IMG/VR virus record: IMGVR_UViG_3300037587_000516
Span: 23,127 to 87,126 of that record
DNA: 64,000 nt
Source: a virus
Strand: one strand, 5' to 3'
Shown in pieces: positions 4,285-58,871 of this stretch. The translations under genes were made by a program, and so were the position numbers. The first letter of the stretch is position 1, and every line of letters begins with the position of its first letter. Below the pieces are notes generated by a model. The model was given only the letters and a program-made list of their open reading frames with translations, searched no databases and had not been told where the DNA came from.

Positions 4285-4574
4285 GTTCATTAATGGCCGG
4301 AACACTTATGATAGCATTTGGCATAGTAATTATAGCCGCCGTTATAATACTGGATATAACAGGAAAGATAAATATAGGACCAAAATTAGCAGCGATTCCT
4401 CCGGAAGAAGTTCCGGAATGTTGGAGAGTTAAGAAGGTTGAGCATGTGTTTTATACTGACGACACAAATGAAATTTACATAATGGACGGAAGTTGGAGAG
4501 CAACTCAGCATTCGAGGTTAATTAGTGGCGAAGTTGAACAAATCGAAGGCTTAATATTTTTGGGCGAGCTGTGA
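4281..4574 (+). CDS. Membrane-anchored small protein (97 aa)
   Basis: Not recognised. N-terminal TM segment (residues about 5-27, LMIAFGIVIIAAVIIL) followed by a soluble domain with ECWRVKKVEHVFYTDD. AGGAAGAG RBS lies within the previous gene. The stop overlaps the GTG start of cassette copy 1, and the last residues IFLGEL resemble the YLGEL end of the gene before copy 2. Confidence 0.65.
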   Translation: MSSLMAGTLMIAFGIVIIAAVIILDITGKINIGPKLAAIPPEEVPECWRVKKVEHVFYTDDTNEIYIMDGSWRATQHSRLISGEVEQIEGLIFLGEL

Positions 4575-4840
4575 AAACAATAATAAGAGATAATGTTTGG
4601 ACCAGACCAACTAAATTCACCGGAATAGTTGAATCTAAGAATGGAGATAAGGCTTGGTATTTGAATGGAGAATACCATAGAGTTGACGGACCTGCTCTTG
4701 AATGTGCTAATGGCACTGGGTATTGGTGGCTAAATGGCTCACATATATTAGAAACAGAGCATTCTAAAAGAACAGCTTATTTAAGAACTACTTTGGGTAA
4801 GTTGATATTTAATGAGCATTTTAAGTTGGAAGAGTCATGA
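4571..4840 (+). CDS. RVDGPA-cassette protein, copy 1
   Basis: First of fifteen paralogues. 89 aa, MKTI-type head. FTGIVES is followed by one repeat (WYLNGEYHRVDGPALE), a WWLNGS half-repeat and the constant tail RTAYLRTTLGKL. GTG start overlaps the previous stop. The 3' end carries GGAAGA instead of the GGAGGA of most copies. No function is known; the repeats resemble the W-YLNG-HR-DGPA repeats seen in other phage and giant-virus proteins. Confidence 0.85.
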   Translation: MKTIIRDNVWTRPTKFTGIVESKNGDKAWYLNGEYHRVDGPALECANGTGYWWLNGSHILETEHSKRTAYLRTTLGKLIFNEHFKLEES

Positions 4841-6183: not shown

Positions 6184-6519
6184 ATGAAGATATTTAAAGG
6201 GTGGTTTCGTGAAAGACCAAAAAACTTCACAGGAATAGTCGAAGATACAGGCGGCGATAAGTATTGGTATTTGAATGGTAAGTGGCATAGAGTTGACGGA
6301 CCTGCTTTTGAGTGTAAAGACGGCAGTAAGGTGTGGTATTTGAATGGGGAAAGGCATAGAGTTGACGGACCTGCTATTGAGTGGTCTGGTGGTGGTAAGT
6401 ATTGGTGTTTGAATGGTGAATATATGTCAGAAGAAGAGCATTATAAAAAGACAGCTTACCTTAGGACTACTTTGGGTAAGCTAATATTTAATGAGCATTT
6501 TAAATTGGAGGAAGGGTGA
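6184..6519 (+). CDS. RVDGPA-cassette protein, copy 3 (two repeats)
   Basis: 111 aa, FKGWF-type head with two complete HRVDGPA repeats (HRVDGPAFECKDG, HRVDGPAIEWSGG) and the full tail. One of four two-repeat copies. Has its own promoter. The 3' GGAGGAAGG serves the GTG of the next gene, overlapped as GTGA. Confidence 0.87.
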   Translation: MKIFKGWFRERPKNFTGIVEDTGGDKYWYLNGKWHRVDGPAFECKDGSKVWYLNGERHRVDGPAIEWSGGGKYWCLNGEYMSEEEHYKKTAYLRTTLGKLIFNEHFKLEEG

Positions 6520-12120: not shown

Positions 12121-14142
12121 ATGACAAATAAGGAGAAACGAGTGTACCGAAGATTATGTAAAACACTAGATAACAAGGGGGAGTTAATCCCCGCCACTGA
12201 CGATGTTTATTCGCATATTAAAAACAAGAACGTAGACCATTATTTAAGCGTGTACAGCTATAATGAGAGCCAAAAGAAAACGTTCTATTCAAAAGTGGAA
12301 AAGTTAGTAGACGGGAAGATAATTGAAACCATAAACGGAGCCGCCGGAATTAGTGATGTGTTCACAAATCAATTCATACTAGACTTTGATATTGATAAGC
12401 TAGCCGGGACTTCATTAGAAGATATAAAAGTTGATACTATAGAAGCAATTAGAAGGTTAAAAGAGAGTGGTATTTCTGAAGAAGCAATTCAGCTGACCTT
12501 TTCTGGAAATAAGGGGTTCGGTATTACAGTTGACATTAATCAGGACTTAACCCCGGATGCACATAAGAAAATGGCCAAGAATCTAATGGGAGACCTATCG
12601 TCGTTCGATACCCGGGTCTACAACGCATCTCGCATACTAAGAGTCTCGTATACTAAACACCAGAGTAGCGGCTTGTTTAAAATGCCTATGGGGATTTCTG
12701 AGCTAGAAGAGTCAATTGAGACAATCCAAGAATGGGCTAAAGACGTTGATGCATCTGATACTATGACATACTCTAGAATAACACTGCCGATTAGTATTAT
12801 GAAGTTGGCGGAGATTAAGCCGGAGCGCAAGAAAGTTGAAGGGTTGACATTAGAAGCTGGGGTTTGTACCTTGGACTTCAATAAAAAGCCCAAGTTCTTG
12901 TCAGACTGGAAGTTTGCAATCTCTGAGGGATACTTTCCTCCGGGAGCAAGAAACTACGCCTTGTTGATACTAGCGGCAACTTATGCTGGGTGCGGGTTTA
13001 ATAAAGAAGCTACGTATAGACTACTAAAAGCAGCTGCGGAGCTTCAATCAGTTAAGTTTGGCGTAGATCGTTTCTCTGATGATGAAATTTGGAAGAACAT
13101 GGTTAGCGTTGTGTATGATCCTAGCTGGCAGGGTGGAACATTTGCGGAAGATAATTTCCCGGATGAACTGTCTGATTACCTTGAGTCAATTGGAGTAAAC
13201 CGCGCAGCGTCTGAGGATACCGAAGATCGAATGATCGAGAAACTTGGAGATGGGTTTGACTCGTTTGCCGCATATGCTAAAACGATAGAAGAGCATACGA
13301 TTAAGACCGGCATTCCTGAGTTAGACGAGAGGCTAAAAATGAGAGCGGGTCAGTTGATCTTCTTATTGGCACCTCCCTCAGTTGGGAAAACCAGCGCTTT
13401 GATAACTGTTCTCAACAACACCAGTAAGGACGGGATAACCTCATACTTCTCTAGTATGGATATGTATGTTCACGAGATATACAAGAAACTGATACAAAGA
13501 CATACTAAATTAACTGAGGATGAAGTATTTGATGTGTTTATTCGTGAGGACGAAGAGAAAATGGAGGAGTTTCGTAACATACTAAAAGAAGAGTATGGAA
13601 ACGTTAACCTTTGCTATAAGTCCGGCGAATCTGTTGGTGAGATGCGCAGATCTATTGAGCGCATTGAGAATCAAACCGGAAAGCGCATTGATCTAGTAGC
13701 AGTTGACTATTTGGAGCTAGTTTTGACAGAAGCTGGTGATCCAACGGCAGCTACAGCAGAGGCGGCTCAGAAACTGCGTGAGCTTGCGAATGAGGGGCGT
13801 GTTGTGATTTGCCTACTCCAACCCAATAAAAACAACTCGCATCCCACAGAGCCTATCACGTCGTTTAACGCAGCTAAAGGAAGTTCTAGTATAAGTCAAG
13901 CATGTACAGCATTTTTAACGTGCAATAGGCCCGGAATGGACTCAACTAACGATAACATTGATGATCACTTCTTTAGTATGAACTGCGTTAAGAACAGAAA
14001 CGGGAACCTATTTGCAATTAACATGGGTTGGGATGGTCCAACTCAGACATTTTATTCTCTGGATGATCAACAGAAAGAGAGATTAAAGAATTTGAGACAA
14101 CGGCAGCAAGAGAAAAAGGCTGTTGATGCGGGGAGTTTATAA
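12121..14142 (+). CDS. AEP-type primase fused to a DnaB/RecA-like helicase
   Basis: Replicative primase-helicase, 673 aa. The N-terminal half carries archaeo-eukaryotic primase marks: FILDFDID (about residue 85, metal-binding acidic pair) and FSGNKGFG (about 128). A helical linker follows (PPGARNYALLILAATYAG, about 278). The C-terminal half is a RecA-fold helicase: Walker A APPSVGKTS (about 416), Walker-B-like DLVAVDYLEL (about 523), ICLLQPNKNN, and KNRNG near the end. T7 uses a TOPRIM primase in this position instead, so the AEP domain is notable. ATG directly follows the previous stop. Confidence 0.8.
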   Translation: MTNKEKRVYRRLCKTLDNKGELIPATDDVYSHIKNKNVDHYLSVYSYNESQKKTFYSKVEKLVDGKIIETINGAAGISDVFTNQFILDFDIDKLAGTSLEDIKVDTIEAIRRLKESGISEEAIQLTFSGNKGFGITVDINQDLTPDAHKKMAKNLMGDLSSFDTRVYNASRILRVSYTKHQSSGLFKMPMGISELEESIETIQEWAKDVDASDTMTYSRITLPISIMKLAEIKPERKKVEGLTLEAGVCTLDFNKKPKFLSDWKFAISEGYFPPGARNYALLILAATYAGCGFNKEATYRLLKAAAELQSVKFGVDRFSDDEIWKNMVSVVYDPSWQGGTFAEDNFPDELSDYLESIGVNRAASEDTEDRMIEKLGDGFDSFAAYAKTIEEHTIKTGIPELDERLKMRAGQLIFLLAPPSVGKTSALITVLNNTSKDGITSYFSSMDMYVHEIYKKLIQRHTKLTEDEVFDVFIREDEEKMEEFRNILKEEYGNVNLCYKSGESVGEMRRSIERIENQTGKRIDLVAVDYLELVLTEAGDPTAATAEAAQKLRELANEGRVVICLLQPNKNNSHPTEPITSFNAAKGSSSISQACTAFLTCNRPGMDSTNDNIDDHFFSMNCVKNRNGNLFAINMGWDGPTQTFYSLDDQQKERLKNLRQRQQEKKAVDAGSL

Positions 14143-15104
14143 TGAATATTTTAGTTAAAATGAAGTTCGGATCACATATGTATGGGACTAACGTTGCTAC
14201 TAGCGACACAGACTATAAAGCAATTTATATTCCGTCAGCAGATGACATACTTATGCAAAGAGCCCGAAAGGTTATTCATGAGAATACCAATAAAACCAAC
14301 ACCAAAAACAGCAATAAAGATGTAGATACTGAATATATTAGCATACAACGGTATATGGAATTACTATTGGAGGGTCAAACTATGGCATTGGATATGTTAT
14401 TTGCCCCGGACGATATGATTCTAGAAGGAGGGGATCGGAAACTTTGGGACTATATTCGCAATAATAAGAAGGAGTTTCTTCATTCTGGAGTGTTGTCTTT
14501 TGTGGGATACTGTAGAACCCAGGCAAATAAGTATGGGATTAAGGGCTCTAGAATGAGTGCAATTAAAGAAGCATTGGGATTATTTAATCTCGTCGTAAAC
14601 GGGACAAATAGGTTAGAAGATATTAATTATACAGACCTATTAGAAAATGATCATATTAAAATGGTTGATTGTAAAGGACCAAATAATAAAACAGAGCCAC
14701 ATCTTGAAATTTGTAATCGCAAATTTGGGATGAGAACAAAGGTTGAGAATATTATCTTTACGCTAGAAAAGATTTATGATGGGTATGGGCACAGAGCTAA
14801 GTTGGCAGAAAAGAATGAAGGAATTGACTGGAAGGCATTAATGCATGCGGTTAGAATTCAGTATCAAGCAAAAGAATTACTATCAACTGGACATATAACA
14901 TTTCCTAGACCAGAAAAGGATTTACTTTTAGATATTAGAAACGGCAAATTGGACTATAAAGTTGTTGCTCGAATTATTGAGGATGGTCTTGATGAATTAG
15001 AACAAATGGAGTCAAACCTACCTAAGAAACCTAATAAGGAGTTTGCTGATAAACTAGTTTGTGATGTCCATCATTCAGAGATTCAGAAGAGGGGGAGCTT
15101 ATGA
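14142..15104 (+). CDS. Nucleotidyltransferase of the RlaP/YcgL type
   Basis: Pol-beta-fold nucleotidyltransferase, 320 aa. The N-terminus shows the active-site pattern GSHMYGTNVATSDTDYK (residues about 7-23; G-S...S-D-x-D). Substrate unknown for phage members. ATG follows GGGGAGTTTATA inside the helicase gene end and shares a base with its stop, so it is probably co-translated. Confidence 0.7.
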   Translation: MNILVKMKFGSHMYGTNVATSDTDYKAIYIPSADDILMQRARKVIHENTNKTNTKNSNKDVDTEYISIQRYMELLLEGQTMALDMLFAPDDMILEGGDRKLWDYIRNNKKEFLHSGVLSFVGYCRTQANKYGIKGSRMSAIKEALGLFNLVVNGTNRLEDINYTDLLENDHIKMVDCKGPNNKTEPHLEICNRKFGMRTKVENIIFTLEKIYDGYGHRAKLAEKNEGIDWKALMHAVRIQYQAKELLSTGHITFPRPEKDLLLDIRNGKLDYKVVARIIEDGLDELEQMESNLPKKPNKEFADKLVCDVHHSEIQKRGSL

Positions 15105-15403
15105 GACTAGAAGAAATTGCGGCACACTATCAGAAGACAGGGGAGTTTTTGCCAGAAGGATTTGAATTTATGGTTGACTATTTCATTGAGAACATCCAAG
15201 GAATGCACGAAGAGTACATTTCAGAGTTTAATGAAGATAGCGTACCGTTTCAAGTTCATGTGCTACAGAGACTAAATGACTGGCAGATCGAAAGCGGGTT
15301 TGCTAGAGAATATACTCCAGAAGAAGTCGAAGAAATGATAGGAGATGATGATCTGGATATTAGTATAGGAGAGGAAGATGATAACGATCCGTGGATTAAT
15401 TAG
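15101..15403 (+). CDS. Acidic protein of unknown function (100 aa)
   Basis: ATG at 15101 overlaps the previous stop with GGGGGAG as RBS. Strongly acidic C-terminus (EEVEEMIGDDDLDISIG). Not recognised. Overlaps the zincin gene by 26 bases. Confidence 0.6.
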   Translation: MRLEEIAAHYQKTGEFLPEGFEFMVDYFIENIQGMHEEYISEFNEDSVPFQVHVLQRLNDWQIESGFAREYTPEEVEEMIGDDDLDISIGEEDDNDPWIN

Positions 15404-15740
15404 TGCGGCGGCTCTTGTTTCGGTGGGGATGATGCTGAACGAGGTAATAACGTACTCAACTACACCAACCATAACAGAGCAGATACTGGTCCCATACAAA
15501 CAGGCGTTTATGGACATGGTAAAGCACACTGGTATGCACCTTGATCTTAACACAATCAAGTTTGAATCACTACCCAACAATACTATAGGAATCTGTAACC
15601 CATTGATGTTGGAGATTAAAATAGACCCCGTATACTGGAGCACAGCGGACGAGAAAGAGAGAATTGCCGTAACTTTTCATGAGTTCAACCACTGTATTTG
15701 TTTGGATCTTGTTCATGCTGAAGGTGAGTTTGAGGACTAG
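15378..15740 (+). CDS. Exported zincin-type metalloprotease, reading frame broken before its C-terminus
   Basis: 120 aa to the stop. Residues 1-27 are a signal peptide or membrane anchor (GLISAAALVSVGMML). The zinc site is VTFHEFNHCICLDLVH (HExxH plus a downstream His). The frame stops at TAG just before a second-frame SIMN (AGT ATT ATG AAC at 15740-15751), which would be the Met-turn of such peptidases, followed by 25 more codons. The protein is therefore a truncated zincin, or is completed by a +1 frameshift at GAC-TAG-T. Confidence 0.65.
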   Translation: MITIRGLISAAALVSVGMMLNEVITYSTTPTITEQILVPYKQAFMDMVKHTGMHLDLNTIKFESLPNNTIGICNPLMLEIKIDPVYWSTADEKERIAVTFHEFNHCICLDLVHAEGEFED

Positions 15741-15828
15741 TATTATGAACACTGTATTGCCAGATAGTGCATGTTTGGGTGAGCATTGGGCAGAGTATAT
15801 GGCGGACTTGATAAAAAGGTGTGAATAA
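15741..15828 (+). pseudogene. Frameshifted C-terminal piece of the zincin, or tiny separate gene
   Basis: From ATG at 15745 the frame reads MNTVLPDSACLGEH and ends at TAA 15826-15828, 27 residues. Read from 15740 it begins SIMNTVLP, like the Met-turn strand expected after HExxH in the preceding gene, displaced by one base. No convincing RBS precedes the ATG. The TAA shares a base with the ATG of cassette copy 5. Confidence 0.55.
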
Positions 15829-16094
15829 TGAAAACTATTAAAGTGAACAACTATTTTAATGTCCCAATTAAATTTACTGGTATTGCTGATTTTGACAGCG
15901 GCACTTTAGTTTGGTTTTTGGATGGAAGGAGACATAGAGTTGATGGACCTGCTGTTGAATATGCTGATGGCATTAAGGTTTGGTGGTTGAATGGTGAGTT
16001 TGTGTCAGAAGAAGAACATGCTAAAAGAACTGCTTATCTTAGGACTACTCTTGGTAAGTTGATATTCAATGAGCATTTTAAATTGGAGGAATAG
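15828..16094 (+). CDS. RVDGPA-cassette protein, copy 5
   Basis: 88 aa, MKTI-type head. One repeat (FLDGRRHRVDGPAVEYADG; Asp replaces Asn in the usual LNG), WWLNGEFVSEEEH and the full tail. FTGIADFDSG deviates from the usual FTGIVE. The end TTGGAGGAATAGATG supplies the RBS of the DNA polymerase gene. Confidence 0.86.
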   Translation: MKTIKVNNYFNVPIKFTGIADFDSGTLVWFLDGRRHRVDGPAVEYADGIKVWWLNGEFVSEEEHAKRTAYLRTTLGKLIFNEHFKLEE

Positions 16095-18614
16095 ATGACC
16101 GATTATTATATAGATGACCAAGAAGCTGCTGATGATTTTCTGGCGTATATCAAAGAAGATGGTATTACGTTAAAGCCAGAGAAGTTCGCAAATAATAATA
16201 TGTATGCTATAGCCTCTGATGGAAATCGCTATATAATTGAACACAAGTTTGGTAAATTAATTAGCCCTTATATTAAAACTAAGCCCAGTGTATTAAAAGT
16301 GGGGGGCGGAAAAAATTCTGTGCAGCATTCCGTAAAAAAGGATTATAAAATAGCATTAACGAATAAAGATAGGGCTAGTATGGAGGCTCACATTAATGAG
16401 TTTGATGTGCATGCATTTGATGTAGAGACTACTGGGCTTAATGTTAGGAAAGAGACCGTTATAGGCTTTTCCGTTTGCGGAAAGGAAGGAACTTCGTTCT
16501 ATTACCCCCTATATCAGTGGCTAAACGACACTCTTGAGCCTATAGAAAGCAACCTAGAGAAGTGCAACCACTTTTTGATGTTACTAAAAGACAAAAAGCT
16601 AGTAACTTGGAACGGATCGTTTGATACTAGGATTACAAAGAATGATCTAGGAGTTGACTTAATTTCCTCCATATACGCCGACGGAATGCTGCTAAAACAC
16701 ACCCTACAAGAAGATGGGCCCTTCGGATTAAAAGCAACTGGGGTTGAAATACAAGAGCACATAGGACTTAACGTAGAAGAAGATGCAAATAAAGAGCAGA
16801 TAGCTCTGAAGGCTAATATAGAAAAGAACGGCGGGTCAACTACAAAGAAAAACTATCAGATGTTTATGGCTGATCTAGAAGTTCTTGGGATCTATGGGTG
16901 CGCAGATGCTGATTTGACTTTGAGAATATACCACTACTACTTAGAGAAGTTGCGGGAAGAGGGATTAGAGGAGTTCTTTTTTGAAGATGAAGTAATGCCG
17001 CTGTATAAAGAAGTCACTATTCCTATGGAAGAAAATGGGGTGGCTATAAACATGGAGTTGTTGCAGAATACTAAGGATGAGATAGAGGAGGATATATTAG
17101 CTTTGAGAGAGAACGTAATATCTTCTCTCATGGAGACGGAGTACTTTGCAGATTGGTTAACTGAGGTAGCAACCAAAAAGTTCCCAGCAAAACCTACTGG
17201 AAAATTTGTACAGGAAATAATACGCCAGCATGAATTAGACTTGCCGGAACTTGCTCCTCATGGACCCATTCCTATTAGAAAATACAGTATTGCTAAAAAG
17301 GGCGTAGAAAGTTTGCCGGACAGCCTAGCAAAAAGCTTTATACAAAGAAAAGAACTAGACTACTCATCTCTTAATTTGGTGGATATTTCCATAAAGTTGT
17401 GGAAGGAAAAAGAAGGGTCTCTTATAAACATATCGTCCAAGCCTCAACTGATGTCGTTAGTATTTGGTAAGATGGGAGTTAAGCCTCTTTCTAAGACTGA
17501 GAAAGGAACTCCTCAATTTAATGATACTATGGTTGAATACTTGGCGGATAACGGACATGAGTGGGCGTCTATTTTAAGAAACTACAATAGGCTAATTAAA
17601 ATACGCGGGGCTTATGTGGACAGGTTTTTGGACGGGCATGAGGACGGTAAGTTTTACTTTTCTTATAAGCAACATGGCACTATTAGTGGCAGGTATGGGT
17701 CTGATGCACAGCAGCTTCCTAGGCCTATGGAAGAAGGCCAGGATGCTGAGGTAGTATTAAAGTATGTGAATAGAATCCGCAAGTTTTTCATAAGCGGAGA
17801 AGATAGAATATTCATTGACTCAGATTACGAAAGTCTTGAGCCCCATGTATTTGCCCATGTTTCTGGAGATAAAGGGCTTATAGACATATTCAACAAAGGA
17901 CATGACTTCTATTCCACTATTGCAATTGCTACTGAGGAGTTAGAAGGAGTTAGTGCAGATAAAAGTGCGGACAATTATCTAGGGAAGGTTGATAAACAAA
18001 AGAGACAGACGGCTAAAGCATATGCTCTCGGGGTTCCATATGGAATGACCGGATTCGCTTTAGGAAAGACTTTGGACATAGACACTGAGGAGGCAGAAGT
18101 CCTCATAGACAACTACATGGAGTCGTACCCTCAGCTTAAAAGCTGGATGGATAAGTCTAAGAAACACGCTCAAGATTTTGGCTATATTTCCTCAGAGGCA
18201 GGTAGGATCAGGCATCTACCACAGGTAAAAGAGATATATGCAGTACACAAAGACAGGCTACTAAGCTTCAAGTACAGAGCTAGAGTATCTAAAAGATTCG
18301 GCAGAGAAGAAATTAAATCAAAGTACAGAGATTATAAGAACGGAGTAAACAACAGTAGGAACTTTCAAATACAGTCTTTATCCGCCAGCATAGTAAATAG
18401 AGCGGCCATAGCCATAAATAGGGAGTTCAAAGAAAGGGGTATAAATGGATACTGCTGTGCCCAAGTACACGATCAACTTATACTAGATGTACCAGAAAGC
18501 TCAAAAGACGTATGTAAGGAGATTGTTAGGGATATGATGGAGAACACTACTAAATTATCACTAAGCATAAAAGCTCCGCCAGAATTTGGTAGAAACTGGC
18601 AAGAAGCGCATTAA
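16095..18614 (+). CDS. polA: Family A DNA polymerase with 3'-5' exonuclease
   Basis: Replicative DNA polymerase, 839 aa. Exo motifs: FDVETTGL (about 108-115), WNGSFDTRI (about 175), YGCADADLTLRIY (about 275). Polymerase motifs: SGRYGSDAQQLPR, motif A DSDYESLEP (about 575), motif B RQTAKAYALGVPYG (about 636), motif C QVHDQL (about 790). The residue matching E. coli Phe762 is Leu, and motif C has HDQ rather than the usual HDE. Its RBS is the 3' end of cassette copy 5. Confidence 0.93.
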   Translation: MTDYYIDDQEAADDFLAYIKEDGITLKPEKFANNNMYAIASDGNRYIIEHKFGKLISPYIKTKPSVLKVGGGKNSVQHSVKKDYKIALTNKDRASMEAHINEFDVHAFDVETTGLNVRKETVIGFSVCGKEGTSFYYPLYQWLNDTLEPIESNLEKCNHFLMLLKDKKLVTWNGSFDTRITKNDLGVDLISSIYADGMLLKHTLQEDGPFGLKATGVEIQEHIGLNVEEDANKEQIALKANIEKNGGSTTKKNYQMFMADLEVLGIYGCADADLTLRIYHYYLEKLREEGLEEFFFEDEVMPLYKEVTIPMEENGVAINMELLQNTKDEIEEDILALRENVISSLMETEYFADWLTEVATKKFPAKPTGKFVQEIIRQHELDLPELAPHGPIPIRKYSIAKKGVESLPDSLAKSFIQRKELDYSSLNLVDISIKLWKEKEGSLINISSKPQLMSLVFGKMGVKPLSKTEKGTPQFNDTMVEYLADNGHEWASILRNYNRLIKIRGAYVDRFLDGHEDGKFYFSYKQHGTISGRYGSDAQQLPRPMEEGQDAEVVLKYVNRIRKFFISGEDRIFIDSDYESLEPHVFAHVSGDKGLIDIFNKGHDFYSTIAIATEELEGVSADKSADNYLGKVDKQKRQTAKAYALGVPYGMTGFALGKTLDIDTEEAEVLIDNYMESYPQLKSWMDKSKKHAQDFGYISSEAGRIRHLPQVKEIYAVHKDRLLSFKYRARVSKRFGREEIKSKYRDYKNGVNNSRNFQIQSLSASIVNRAAIAINREFKERGINGYCCAQVHDQLILDVPESSKDVCKEIVRDMMENTTKLSLSIKAPPEFGRNWQEAH

Positions 18615-18657: not shown

Positions 18658-18675
18658 AGTATATGGGAGTTGGAT

Positions 18676-19014
18676 ATGAAAACAATAAAAGTGGACGACA
18701 ATTGGCATAAGCCAGATAAATTCACAGGAATTGCTGAATATCCTAATGGCGATGAGTATTGGTATTTGAATGGTAAATATCATAGAGTCGACGGACCTGC
18801 TATTGAATATGCTGGTGGTGGTAAGTATTGGTATTTGAATGGTAAAATGCATAGAGTTGGCGGACCTGCTGAGGAATGGTCAGATGGTAGTGAGTTTTGG
18901 TTTTTGAATGGTGAGATGCTAACAGAAGAAGAGCATGATAAAAGAACAGCCTATTTAAGAACTACATTAGGCAAACTAATATTCAATGAGCATTTTAAGT
19001 TGGAGGACTCGTGA
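18676..19014 (+). CDS. RVDGPA-cassette protein, copy 6 (two repeats)
   Basis: 112 aa, MKTI-type head. Two repeats, the second altered (HRVGGPAEEW), then FLNGEMLTEEEH and the tail. ATG at 18676 is favoured over TTG at 18670 because GGGAG lies 7 bases upstream. First of three tandem copies; the end GGAGGACTC plus GTG starts copy 7. Confidence 0.87.
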   Translation: MKTIKVDDNWHKPDKFTGIAEYPNGDEYWYLNGKYHRVDGPAIEYAGGGKYWYLNGKMHRVGGPAEEWSDGSEFWFLNGEMLTEEEHDKRTAYLRTTLGKLIFNEHFKLEDS

Positions 19015-19280
19015 GAGTATTTAAAGGGTGGTTTGGTGACGAACCAGATAATTTCACCGGAATTGTTGAGTCTGAGAATGGGGACAGGGCTTGGTGTTTG
19101 AATGGTGAATGTCATAGAGTTGACGGACCTGCTATTGAGTGGGGTGATAGTGGAAGTTGGTCGTGGTATTTGAATGGTGTGATGATAACAGAGGAAGAGC
19201 ACACTAAAAAGACAGCGGGGTATAGAACTACCTTGGGAAAATTGATTTTTAATGAGCATTTTAAATTGGAGGAGAAATGA
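19011..19280 (+). CDS. RVDGPA-cassette protein, copy 7
   Basis: 89 aa, FKGWF-type head, GTG start overlapping copy 6's stop. One repeat (HRVDGPAIEWGDS) followed by a longer SGSWSWYLNGVM stretch and the tail (KTAGYRTTLGKL). The end GGAGGAGAAATGA starts copy 8. Confidence 0.87.
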   Translation: MRVFKGWFGDEPDNFTGIVESENGDRAWCLNGECHRVDGPAIEWGDSGSWSWYLNGVMITEEEHTKKTAGYRTTLGKLIFNEHFKLEEK

Positions 19281-19630
19281 AGGTATTTAAAGGGTGGTTT
19301 GGAGATCAACCAGATAACTTTACTGGGATTGTTGAAACTCCGCGTGGTAATAAGTATTGGTATTTAAATGGTGAGAGACATAGAGTGGGTGGACCTGCTA
19401 GTGAATATCCTGGTGGCAGTAAGCGGTGGTATTTGAATGGACTAAGACATAGAGTTGACGGACCTGCTAGTGAATGGGCTGATGGCACTGAGATTTGGTA
19501 TTTGAATGATGTAGAAATGACAGAAGATGAGCACACTAAAAGGACCGCTTGCTATAGAACTACCTTGGGTAGATTAATACTAAAAAAAGAAGGGCATTTT
19601 AAACTACAAACTGAGGAGGAATCAGTATGA
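19277..19630 (+). CDS. RVDGPA-cassette protein, copy 8 (two repeats, altered tail)
   Basis: 117 aa, FKGWF-type head. Repeats read HRVGGPASEYPGG and HRVDGPASEWADG. The tail diverges: TTLGRLILKKEGHFKLQ replaces LIFNEHFKLEE, with six extra residues ending TEEESV. Even so, GAGGAGGAATC at the 3' end preserves an RBS for the next gene. Confidence 0.85.
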   Translation: MKVFKGWFGDQPDNFTGIVETPRGNKYWYLNGERHRVGGPASEYPGGSKRWYLNGLRHRVDGPASEWADGTEIWYLNDVEMTEDEHTKRTACYRTTLGRLILKKEGHFKLQTEEESV

Positions 19631-23063: not shown

Positions 23064-23344
23064 AAACAATAAAGCTAGAGTCAGTTTGGAGTGGGCCAGA
23101 TAATTACACCGGAATTGTTGAAAATCCATATGGTGATAAGGTTTGGTTTTTGAATGGTCTAAGACATAGAGTTGATGGACCTGCTTGTGTGTGGGATGAT
23201 GGAGATGAGTGGTGGTATTTGACTGATGAGTATATGACAGAGGAAGAGCACAGTAAAAGAACTGCTTACTTAAGAACCACACTAGGCAGACTTATACTAA
23301 AAGAACACTTTACATTAGGAGATGAAAATGCAAGTAAAGATTAA
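23060..23344 (+). CDS. RVDGPA-cassette protein, copy 9 (altered tail)
   Basis: 94 aa, MKTI-type head (KLESVWSGPDNYTGIVE; Tyr replaces Phe of FTGIVE). One repeat (HRVDGPACVWDDG), WWYLTDEYMTEEEH, then a changed tail: TTLGRLILKEHFTLGDENASKD. Overlaps the dUTPase start; its TAGGAG is the dUTPase RBS. Confidence 0.85.
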   Translation: MKTIKLESVWSGPDNYTGIVENPYGDKVWFLNGLRHRVDGPACVWDDGDEWWYLTDEYMTEEEHSKRTAYLRTTLGRLILKEHFTLGDENASKD

Positions 23345-24220: not shown

Positions 24221-24468
24221 AGGGAAAATCCAAAGTTCCAGAAAAAGCAACCACAGACAAGCTACGTTACTATAAAGGCGTTGTCAAAGAACTTACAAAA
24301 GAATTGCGGAATCTAAAGGATAGGGTCGGTGATTTGGAAACACAGATGTCTAAGATATACACAAACCCGAAAAAGTATACTAAAACTAAAGCTAGTATAG
24401 ATGAAAGAGAGCGGGAATTGCTTTTGAAAAAATATAACCCGGATTATAAAAAGGATGGAGAGAAATGA
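24217..24468 (+). CDS. Basic coiled-coil protein (83 aa)
   Basis: TTG start at 24217 overlapping the previous stop. Lys/Glu-rich helix with a heptad-like middle (LTKELRNLKDRVGDLETQMS). Not recognised. Its end GGAGAGAAATGA starts cassette copy 11. Confidence 0.55.
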   Translation: MKGKSKVPEKATTDKLRYYKGVVKELTKELRNLKDRVGDLETQMSKIYTNPKKYTKTKASIDERERELLLKKYNPDYKKDGEK

Positions 24469-24731
24469 AGGTGTTTAAAGGGTGGACTTGGAATATGCCA
24501 AATAATTTCACTGGCATTGTTGAAAACAATAGTGGTAATAAGCATTGGTATTTGAATGGTGAGAAGCATAGAGTTGACGGACCTGCTATTGAATATGTTG
24601 GCGGAGTTAAGGCCTGGTTTTTGAATGGTGAGCGTGTGACAGAGGAAGAGCATTATAAAAAGACAGCTTATCTTAGGACTACTCTTGGTAAGTTGATATT
24701 TAATGAGCATTTTAAACTGGAGGAAGCGTGA
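24465..24731 (+). CDS. RVDGPA-cassette protein, copy 11
   Basis: 88 aa, FKGW-type head (FKGWTWNMPNNFTGIVE). One repeat (HRVDGPAIEYVGG), FLNGERVTEEEH, full tail. Its last ~75 nucleotides are nearly identical to those of copy 4 (9266-9340). GGAGGAAGC plus GTG starts the following HNH gene. Confidence 0.88.
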   Translation: MKVFKGWTWNMPNNFTGIVENNSGNKHWYLNGEKHRVDGPAIEYVGGVKAWFLNGERVTEEEHYKKTAYLRTTLGKLIFNEHFKLEEA

Positions 24732-26420: not shown

Positions 26421-26680
26421 TGGAAGTGTTTAAAGGGTGGCTTGTAGATAGACCAGATAAATTCACTGGGATTGTCGAAAGACCAGATGGTGATAAGTTT
26501 TGGTGTTTGAATGGTGGGTGGCATAGAGTGGATGGACCTGCTATTGAATGGTTCGATGGTGCTACGTATTGGTTTTTGAATGGTGTGTATATGACAGAAG
26601 AAGAGCATTATAAAAGAACAGCTTATCTTAGAACTACATTAGGTAAGCTAATATTTAAGGAACAATCGAAATTAATATGA
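26420..26680 (+). CDS. RVDGPA-cassette protein, copy 12 (degenerate end)
   Basis: 86 aa, FKGW-type head (MEVFKGWLVDR). One repeat (HRVDGPAIEWFDG), FLNGVYMTEEEH, then the tail decays after KLIFKEQSKLI, losing both NEHFKLEE and the GGAGG. The next ATG still overlaps its stop. Confidence 0.85.
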   Translation: MEVFKGWLVDRPDKFTGIVERPDGDKFWCLNGGWHRVDGPAIEWFDGATYWFLNGVYMTEEEHYKRTAYLRTTLGKLIFKEQSKLI

Positions 26681-27087
26681 GCATCAAAGACTTAACAACA
26701 GAAGAATTATTAGAATCAGTAGGCAAAGCAAAGCCTACTGTTTTTAATTTTTCAAACGAGAATAAGAGTATTCGGGATTTTATCCAGGATCTTGGGATTG
26801 CTGACGGCAAGACTAGAGTTCCGGGACATCGTTTATATTACGAATACAGAAAGCTCTGGAGACCTACCGGAGTTAAGATCACTAAGATAGACTTCCTAAG
26901 AAGGTTCAATAGATATTTTAAAGTACAAAGAACAAAATCAACTAGATACTATATGCTTAAACGAGGTATATTCAGTTTAGATAAGGACATCATAGACAAT
27001 GCCAAAAAGTTCGACGAAAGATACGAAAATAAAATCAGAAAAAAAAGAGAGCAGAAGATCAAAGGAAAAGTTCCCAGCACTGAATAA
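26677..27087 (+). CDS. Basic phage protein, possibly DNA-binding (136 aa)
   Basis: Not recognised. ATG overlaps the stop of cassette copy 12. An acidic N-terminus is followed by a very basic half (KITKIDFLRRFNRYFKVQRT and a Lys-rich C-terminus), suggesting nucleic acid binding. The next gene overlaps its last 89 bases. Confidence 0.55.
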   Translation: MSIKDLTTEELLESVGKAKPTVFNFSNENKSIRDFIQDLGIADGKTRVPGHRLYYEYRKLWRPTGVKITKIDFLRRFNRYFKVQRTKSTRYYMLKRGIFSLDKDIIDNAKKFDERYENKIRKKREQKIKGKVPSTE

Positions 27088-27610
27088 GCGATATAATTTA
27101 CGAATGCGTTTAGACTACATAGAGCCCGATTATGTAAATGGAGTACAGGATGAAAAGGGCAATTTAGTTATCCCGCCTTTAGATGAGGAAGCTAAGAGGT
27201 TCTTAAATCGCTATTACGAAGAAGTAATCAATGCCAATTTTCTACATGATAAAGAACTAAAAGCAATCCATAATAAAATGAAGCCGCTTAAAAAGAAGAT
27301 GCAGCTAACTTTGGATGAAGAATCCGAACTTGATTATTTACAATTTCAGTATTTTGAAAGGGCGGATGAGGTATTACTATACGCAGATGAGGAAGATCAG
27401 CGAAAGGTGTATGGAGAAAACAATGCTCGGAATCGTTGTATTTACAACCGCAGTAAGGCAGCAGGAATGCTTGATGGCATAAACGTTTCAACATTCAATG
27501 AAGAAAGCGAGACTAATACTGTGTGTCCAGAAAGTGGAGAGAAGCTTGCAATAGACAAACAAGAACACCAGCGTAAGTATATACTAAGAAAGAAGTCCAA
27601 GAAACTTTAG
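26999..27610 (+). CDS. Conserved-looking phage protein of unknown function (203 aa)
   Basis: From ATG 26999 a Lys-rich leader of about 30 residues precedes RLDYIEPDYVNGVQDEKG; ATG at 27104 is an alternative start. Helical middle and EDQRKVYGENNARNRCIYN. It resembles a protein found in many tailed phages, but no function is known to me. Last + strand gene of the block; its end overlaps the end of the convergent - strand gene by 27 bases. Confidence 0.6.
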   Translation: MPKSSTKDTKIKSEKKESRRSKEKFPALNKRYNLRMRLDYIEPDYVNGVQDEKGNLVIPPLDEEAKRFLNRYYEEVINANFLHDKELKAIHNKMKPLKKKMQLTLDEESELDYLQFQYFERADEVLLYADEEDQRKVYGENNARNRCIYNRSKAAGMLDGINVSTFNEESETNTVCPESGEKLAIDKQEHQRKYILRKKSKKL

Positions 27611-57602: not shown

Positions 57603-57606
57603 GTGT

Positions 57607-57729
57607 ATGAACCTATCCGGCCTGTTAGCCCAAGATCCAAGCTGGGCAAGCCCAGAGATGGTTATTCTGTTTGCTGTATTAATAGTTATGTGCGTAGTTA
57701 CCTCAGGAAAAGGGAGGAGAAAAGGATGA
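57607..57729 (+). CDS. Single-TM peptide in the lysis region (40 aa)
   Basis: ATG at 57607 after AGAGGAGTAAGTGT. Polar N-terminus, one TM helix (MVILFAVLIVMCVV), and a basic end (SGKGRRKG). The stop overlaps the ATG of cassette copy 14. Its form fits a small second holin or regulator, but that is only positional inference. Confidence 0.6.
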   Translation: MNLSGLLAQDPSWASPEMVILFAVLIVMCVVTSGKGRRKG

Positions 57730-57995
57730 AAACAATAAAGCTAGGTGACTATTGGGATAGGCCGGATAATTTTACAGGGATTGTTGAAGACCGATACGAC
57801 AATAAGTATTGGTGTTTGAATGGCAAAAGACATAGAGTTGACGGACCTGCAATTGAATGGTCAGATGGAGATAAGGAATGGTTTATGAATGGTGAGCAGA
57901 TAACAGAGGAAGATCATGCTAAAAGAACAGCGTGGACCAAAACTACGCTAGGTAAGTTGATATTCAATGAGCATTTTAAATTGGAGAGCACATGA
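57726..57995 (+). CDS. RVDGPA-cassette protein, copy 14
   Basis: 89 aa from ATG 57726 after AGGAGAAAAGG; a longer in-frame extension to 57603 overlaps the TM peptide and lacks family similarity. MKTI-type head, one repeat (HRVDGPAIEWSDG), FMNGEQITEEDH and the tail. The end TTGGAGAGCACATG starts the next gene. Confidence 0.87.
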   Translation: MKTIKLGDYWDRPDNFTGIVEDRYDNKYWCLNGKRHRVDGPAIEWSDGDKEWFMNGEQITEEDHAKRTAWTKTTLGKLIFNEHFKLEST

Positions 57996-58258: not shown

Positions 58259-58602
58259 AGTACGTCATATTTGCATTTGTACTAATATATAGTATAGAAG
58301 TGTTTCCTGACCGGACCCCGATTGACCAGATACTGAGAACCATCGAAACGTCAACCGGGTGCAAAATGATAGTCACATCAGGATTTCGCACAAAGGCTCA
58401 TAATACTAGAGTAGGCGGAGCTAAGAACAGTTTTCATCTATATGGAAGAGCATTGGATATTGTGCCTAAGGACAAAAAGTGTATTAGTATTAAGAAGTTG
58501 GGCAAGATTGCTTGTAAGATTACCTCTGTAATAACATACAAGTACCATGCCCATATCGACAACAGAGCCAAGCCGCTCTGTATCTTGGGCAGGTATAAAT
58601 GA
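58255..58602 (+). CDS. Exported M15-family peptidase, probable endolysin
   Basis: 115 aa. N-terminal signal or signal-anchor (MKYVIFAFVLIYSIEVF). Zinc peptidase motifs TSGFRTKAHN, NSFHLYGRALDIV (H-x6-D) and YHAHIDNR (H-x-D) match M15_3 D,D/L,D-carboxypeptidase-like enzymes that cleave peptidoglycan peptides. Together with the holin upstream this forms the lysis unit. Stop overlaps cassette copy 15. Confidence 0.8.
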   Translation: MKYVIFAFVLIYSIEVFPDRTPIDQILRTIETSTGCKMIVTSGFRTKAHNTRVGGAKNSFHLYGRALDIVPKDKKCISIKKLGKIACKITSVITYKYHAHIDNRAKPLCILGRYK

Positions 58603-58871
58603 AAACAATAAAACTAAGCACAACCGAAAAAACTCCGGATAATTTCACAGGAATTATAGAAGAGCCAGATGGTAATAAGTATTGGTTTTTAAATGGTAAG
58701 GAACATAGGGTTGACGGACCTGCTGTTGAATTTGCTGATGGTACTATTAAGAAGTGGTATTTGAATGGTATGAAAGTGACAGAAAAAGAGCATATTAAAA
58801 GAACAGCTTATTTAAGAACTACTTTGGGCAAATTGATATTCAATGAGCATTTTAAATTGGAGGACACATGA
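58599..58871 (+). CDS. RVDGPA-cassette protein, copy 15
   Basis: 90 aa, MKTI-type head (KLSTTEKTPDNFTGIIEE). One repeat (HRVDGPAVEFADG) with an extra TIKKWYLNGM stretch, then VTEKEHIKRTAYLRTTLGKL and the full end. GGAGGACACATG starts the next gene. Rightmost copy in the window. Confidence 0.87.
   Translation: MKTIKLSTTEKTPDNFTGIIEEPDGNKYWFLNGKEHRVDGPAVEFADGTIKKWYLNGMKVTEKEHIKRTAYLRTTLGKLIFNEHFKLEDT

Follow-up and report, generated by a model that had tools for sequence, protein, structure and literature searches.

A zincin gene in a phage genome whose reading frame is probably broken ahead of the Met-turn

Introduction

Why should a small zinc peptidase (zincin) gene stop shortly after its zinc site, with a segment fitting the Met-turn one base further on in another frame? 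The question is raised by a locus in a 64,000-nucleotide stretch of viral DNA, here called the window, which forms part (positions 23,127 to 87,126) of the 87,126-base IMG/VR virus record IMGVR_UViG_3300037587_000516. An earlier note on this DNA had proposed either a recent frameshift mutation or programmed +1 frameshifting. Phage contigs often contain a single broken accessory gene, and as a broken gene the locus would be ordinary and of small importance; if programmed shifting were true, the known bacterial +1 shift sites would gain a new type, one at UAG. Weighing relatives, sequence profiles and the features of the junction, we favour a recent loss-of-function mutation, with an assembly error less likely and programming very unlikely.

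Two frames within a replication block

The zincin gene lies within a tightly packed replication block, with the gene order and features listed below (window positions; the zincin features are on the plus strand).

12121-14142: DnaB-like helicase-primase
14142-15104: nucleotidyltransferase
between the nucleotidyltransferase and the zincin: 100-aa open reading frame (ORF)
15378-15740, plus strand: frame-0 part of the small exported zincin gene (ORF; profile match)
15673-15740, plus strand: both frames open, with the frame-breaking length change within, probably just 5' of the SIM motif (open +1 frame, short loop, missing Cys)
15678-15695, plus strand: HEFNHC zinc motif, with two zinc-ligand His, Glu and an invariant Cys (alignment A1)
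15714-15716, plus strand: third His in frame 0, six residues past HC instead of five (relatives)
15738-15740, plus strand: TAG stop of frame 0, preceded by GAC (sequence)
15739-15828, plus strand: displaced C-terminus in the +1 frame, with the SIM Met-turn motif, C-x15-C and a TAA stop (family profiles)
15828-16094: small HRVDGPA-repeat gene, directly after the zincin
16095-18614: DNA polymerase A

Frame 0 begins directly after a Shine-Dalgarno sequence, AGGAGAGGAAG, that makes a strong ribosome site, and its 120-aa product carries a hydrophobic N-terminal helix, IGIC, IDPVYW and HEFNHC, with H101, E102, H105 and C106 falling in invariant columns of A1, an alignment of 43 small exported family members. 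The hydrophobic helix supports the predicted export of the protein, as had been claimed for it. As also described earlier, the frame ends in GAC (15735-15737) and TAG (15738-15740), and one base on, the +1 frame, open as far back as 15673, reads the SIMN segment: SIMNTVLPDSACLGEHWAEYMADLIKRCE (SIMN...KRCE; 15739-15825), 29 codons long, followed by a TAA (15826-15828) that runs into the start codon of the next gene (ATG, 15828).

That next gene belongs to a small paralogous family (WYLNG..HRVDGPA.E ... TLGKLIFNEHFKLEE) of about 25 ORFs spread over the 87-kb record, often head to tail, with members in the window at 4571-4840, 6184-6519, 15828-16094, 18670-19014, 19011-19280, 19277-19630, 24465-24731, 57603-57995 and 58599-58871, and others on L061/L062. 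Their common end often provides the ribosome site for the following gene, and the one paralog tested had no PHROG match. Elsewhere in the window, two ORFs (26677-27087 and 26999-27610) that adjoin a head maturation protease overlap by 89 bases in different frames, and neither has a PHROG match.

Relatives read straight through

Direct tblastn searches of phages, plasmids and IMG/VR with frame 0 or with the joined chain gave zero relatives, so we built two frame-blind DNA patterns, in which HExxHC is followed 36-66 bases on by [ST]IM in any frame. These returned 50 IMG/VR loci, 47 of them true relatives (some being copies of one gene), and both motifs share a single open frame in all 47, as they do in about 27 of about 27 relatives in bacterial GTDB genomes; the split arrangement thus occurs in 0 of about 74 relatives across the two collections. 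The other three loci, L038, L043 and L055, were discarded as chance pattern matches. L038 has a natural end soon after the third His and was weighed as a case against a broken gene, but its family match is weak (15.6 bits) and its SIMN belongs to the start of the next gene. In a second sample, picked by the upstream part only (n=24), the frames were likewise continuous, with a SIM-type motif in 13 and a related YMNPY/FMYP end in frame in the other 11. Degenerate scans built from A1 were abandoned, conservation being insufficient. The comparison of homologues proposed in the earlier note returned continuous frames, and the SIM-containing class held none of the homologues that would have spoken against a broken gene, those ending at the same TAG.

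The searches turned up no near-identical virus, and the ancestral unbroken allele was thus not seen. The closest viruses by polymerase, at 48% identity, are Flavobacterium phage immuto, L002 and L003; no copy of the zincin gene was found in L002 or L003, and none is annotated near the polymerase of immuto.

Homology of the displaced tail

Against a profile of the 43 intact relatives, the frame-0 protein scored 50.6 bits and the tail alone 19.0 bits, the latter at C-terminal profile positions 116-143, which directly continue the part matched by frame 0, and the joined chain of frame 0 plus tail reached 74.5 bits. With a C-terminal profile, the tail scored 31.0 bits, whereas the best of 2000 shuffles reached 10.4, and of the 2356 six-frame fragments of the 87-kb record the tail alone matched significantly (E 2e-8). 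The codon score was also highest in the frame of the tail (0.11 versus −0.64 and −0.91). As a negative control we used L038, in which a SIMN happens to follow a stop, and its chance tail scored just 1.5-2.9 bits. Finally, the HExxHC-then-[ST]IM pattern matched the window once, at 15678-15750, a match that spans 24 codons plus one base, with none expected by chance. On these profile comparisons, the tail at 15739-15825 is real homology, not chance.

Departures of the window copy from its relatives

Beyond the frame itself, the window copy departs from its family in several places. The third His follows HC by five residues in all 87 distinct relatives, whereas the window copy has six; in six of the 87, the residue preceding the third His is also His. 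With this extra residue between the second and third ligand His, the earlier description of the remainder as intact is not quite accurate. With the frames joined, the loop from HC to SIM has 14 residues versus a mode of 17 in relatives, a length that would be tolerable alone, since the natural loops of L031, L050, L056 and L087 span 12-13 residues and contain no Cys. Two positions before SIM, most relatives have Pro or Cys and the window copy has Glu. As to the Cys residues around SIM, 44 relatives have neither the upstream nor the downstream one, and four have the downstream one only, each with a second Cys further on; the window copy keeps the downstream Cys, and the C-x15-C spacing found in L037, L107, L109 and L110, and lacks the partner at −2/−3 before SIM. 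The nearest tail is that of L060, a CPKSIMN protein (GACYGTHHGEYIADL versus SACLGEHWAEYMADL). Signs of decay are confined to the frame and to these local departures: frame 0 keeps a good ribosome site and is interrupted by no second stop, and the tail is clean.

What may have broken the frame

All intact relatives that were found have an uninterrupted frame, and the window copy is therefore most likely broken. We consider it probable that the gene is one for a small membrane-anchored, extracytoplasmic zinc peptidase, its frame broken by a small indel in the loop that leads from the third zinc ligand to the Met-turn, with a net change that would not be a multiple of three. The loop most likely lost sequence, Cys included: given the short loop, the lone later Cys and the CPKSIMN of L060, the loss of a short loop stretch of such a length would be the simplest reading. 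Translation would then halt at the TAG (15738-15740) and yield a 120-residue chain that lacks the Met-turn and the last helix and could probably neither hold nor use zinc; as translation stops before the Met-turn, the truncated product is probably inactive. The tail would have been left out of frame, not yet worn away, and we infer a real and recent mutation in the virus population. Of the two origins first proposed, then, mutation gains from the continuous relatives and the further departures, and programming loses for want of a slippery site, a stimulator or a split relative.

A sequencing or assembly error, in which the gene is continuous in the virus and the contig gained or lost bases at the junction, would also account for the continuous relatives, and the one available copy of the locus comes from a metagenomic IMG/VR contig; we nevertheless regard such an error as unlikely. 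The junction has no homopolymer or repeat, and a single-base error would not explain all at once why the ligand spacing is six residues, the loop short and the Cys missing. In addition, no second gene with a split frame was noticed among the closely spaced genes of the 87-kb record, a mild argument against poor sequence quality.

Programmed +1 ribosomal frameshifting at GAC_TAG would join both parts and set the amount of full-length zincin, an explanation that draws on the clean state of the two parts, on the fit of the joined chain to the family from end to end (74.5 bits), on its pLDDT of 84 in AlphaFold2, on the stop codon at the switch point, as in prfB, and on an SD-like AGGTGA 10 bases 5' of the TAG. 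Yet we hold it to be very improbable, and it seems just as doubtful that a previously undescribed +1 recoding site here would yield a little full-length exported zinc protease beside the truncated form. None of the about 74 relatives uses the GAC_TAG split, and the joined product would retain a lone Cys and the six-residue ligand spacing. At known bacterial +1 stop sites, CUU or three or four identical bases precede the stop and the P-site tRNA re-pairs (PMC10885494), and in prfB, AGGGGG lies three bases 5' of the CTTT slippery sequence, with UGA as the shift stop in over 99% of cases and UAA in the rest (PMC12421855). Compared with these descriptions, the site reads GAC_T and has no slippery P-site codon before the stop; tRNA-Asp on a P-site GAC cannot re-pair with ACU. 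In GAAGGTGAGTTTGAGGACTAG, an AGGGGG-type stimulator three bases before the shift codon is absent, and the spacing of the SD-like AGGTGA, about ten bases from the TAG, is wrong. The RNA downstream folds no better than its shuffles (z −0.49), which leaves no downstream stimulator beyond chance.

Two variants of recoding were also set aside. A slip further upstream, at TTT_G, is disfavoured because AGG (85 of 13046 codons) would have to stand where the far commoner GAG (373) does now. With TAG reassigned to sense, the frame past the TAG would read YYEHCIAR*, and TAG ends many other genes of the record.

Finally, it is scarcely credible that the two parts are made independently, the first as a truncated, exported protein and the second as a 27-residue peptide from ATG 15745, for although GAGG lies 9 bases 5' of that ATG and a stop 4 bases upstream would allow re-initiation, the peptide would have no export signal beside an exported first part, the tail matches the family at positions of one chain, and the split is seen in no relative.

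A widespread family of small exported phage zincins

As a by-product, the search for relatives uncovered a group of small exported phage zincins that is widespread and barely curated. Its members, mostly lipoproteins, follow the pattern HELGHC-x5-H...(C/P)xSIM(Y/N)P...Y..EL and occur in diverse phages and in genomes of Saprospiraceae, other Bacteroidota, Bdellovibrionota and Oligoflexia. Coverage by Pfam and PHROGs is weak: PF18894 (PhageMetallopep) matches 33 of the 44 members of A1 at E 0.01 or better, and PF18894 and a few PHROGs (phrog_87, metallo-protease) weakly match many family members. Functionally, intact members would work outside the cytoplasm as membrane-anchored zinc peptidases, and no consistent partner gene was found among their neighbours in six other phages.

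In all 31 family members that have the upstream Cys, a Cys at −2/−3 of SIM pairs with another shortly after it (the loci listed for the pair are L018, L019, L034-L037, L045, L047, L048, L051, L060, L107, L109, L110 and L112), and this co-occurrence suggests a conserved disulphide clamped around the Met-turn. A distinct subclass (L100, L101, L103, L105, L106, L108, L111, L113, L114, L116 and L117) has a plain membrane anchor and a terminus near a conserved Cys, with an HHVDxxxNYMNPY end replacing SIMYP. The virus from which the window comes also carries a second zincin-type gene (L062:5449-6540, about 17449-18540 of the record), whose 363-aa protein combines a HELDH metallopeptidase-like part with a VWA-like part (DTSGSVS) and matches the zincin profile weakly, at 22 bits.

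Comparison with known systems

Set against the family in A1, the window copy shares IGxC, IDxxYW, HExxHC, SIMN, the Y..DL tail and an N-terminal membrane segment, and its HCxC and C-x15-C pattern is that of L037, L107, L109 and L110. It differs in having its frame broken before SIM, with the Met-turn and C-terminal helix in the +1 frame, in the x6 rather than x5 between HC and the third His, in a short loop without Cys or Pro, in the Asn of HEFNHC and in the absence of a lipobox Cys. Its match to PF18894 spans IDPVYW...HEFNHC and is weak (17.7-17.9 bits, E 0.003), below the curated gathering cut-off of 23.7 bits. Structurally, the best fold matches of the joined model are among the minigluzincins and selecases, namely proabylysin (4jiu) and selecase (4qhi) at a TM of 0.44 of the query, but with E values of 0.01-0.1 (best 0.013) and 15% identity, these are not significant; the predicted fold is consistent with a small zincin core. 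With prfB (RF2), the locus has in common a +1 switch directly at a stop codon, but it lacks the CUUU slippery run and an AGGGGG at the right place, has TAG and not TGA, and stands in an arrangement that its relatives do not conserve.
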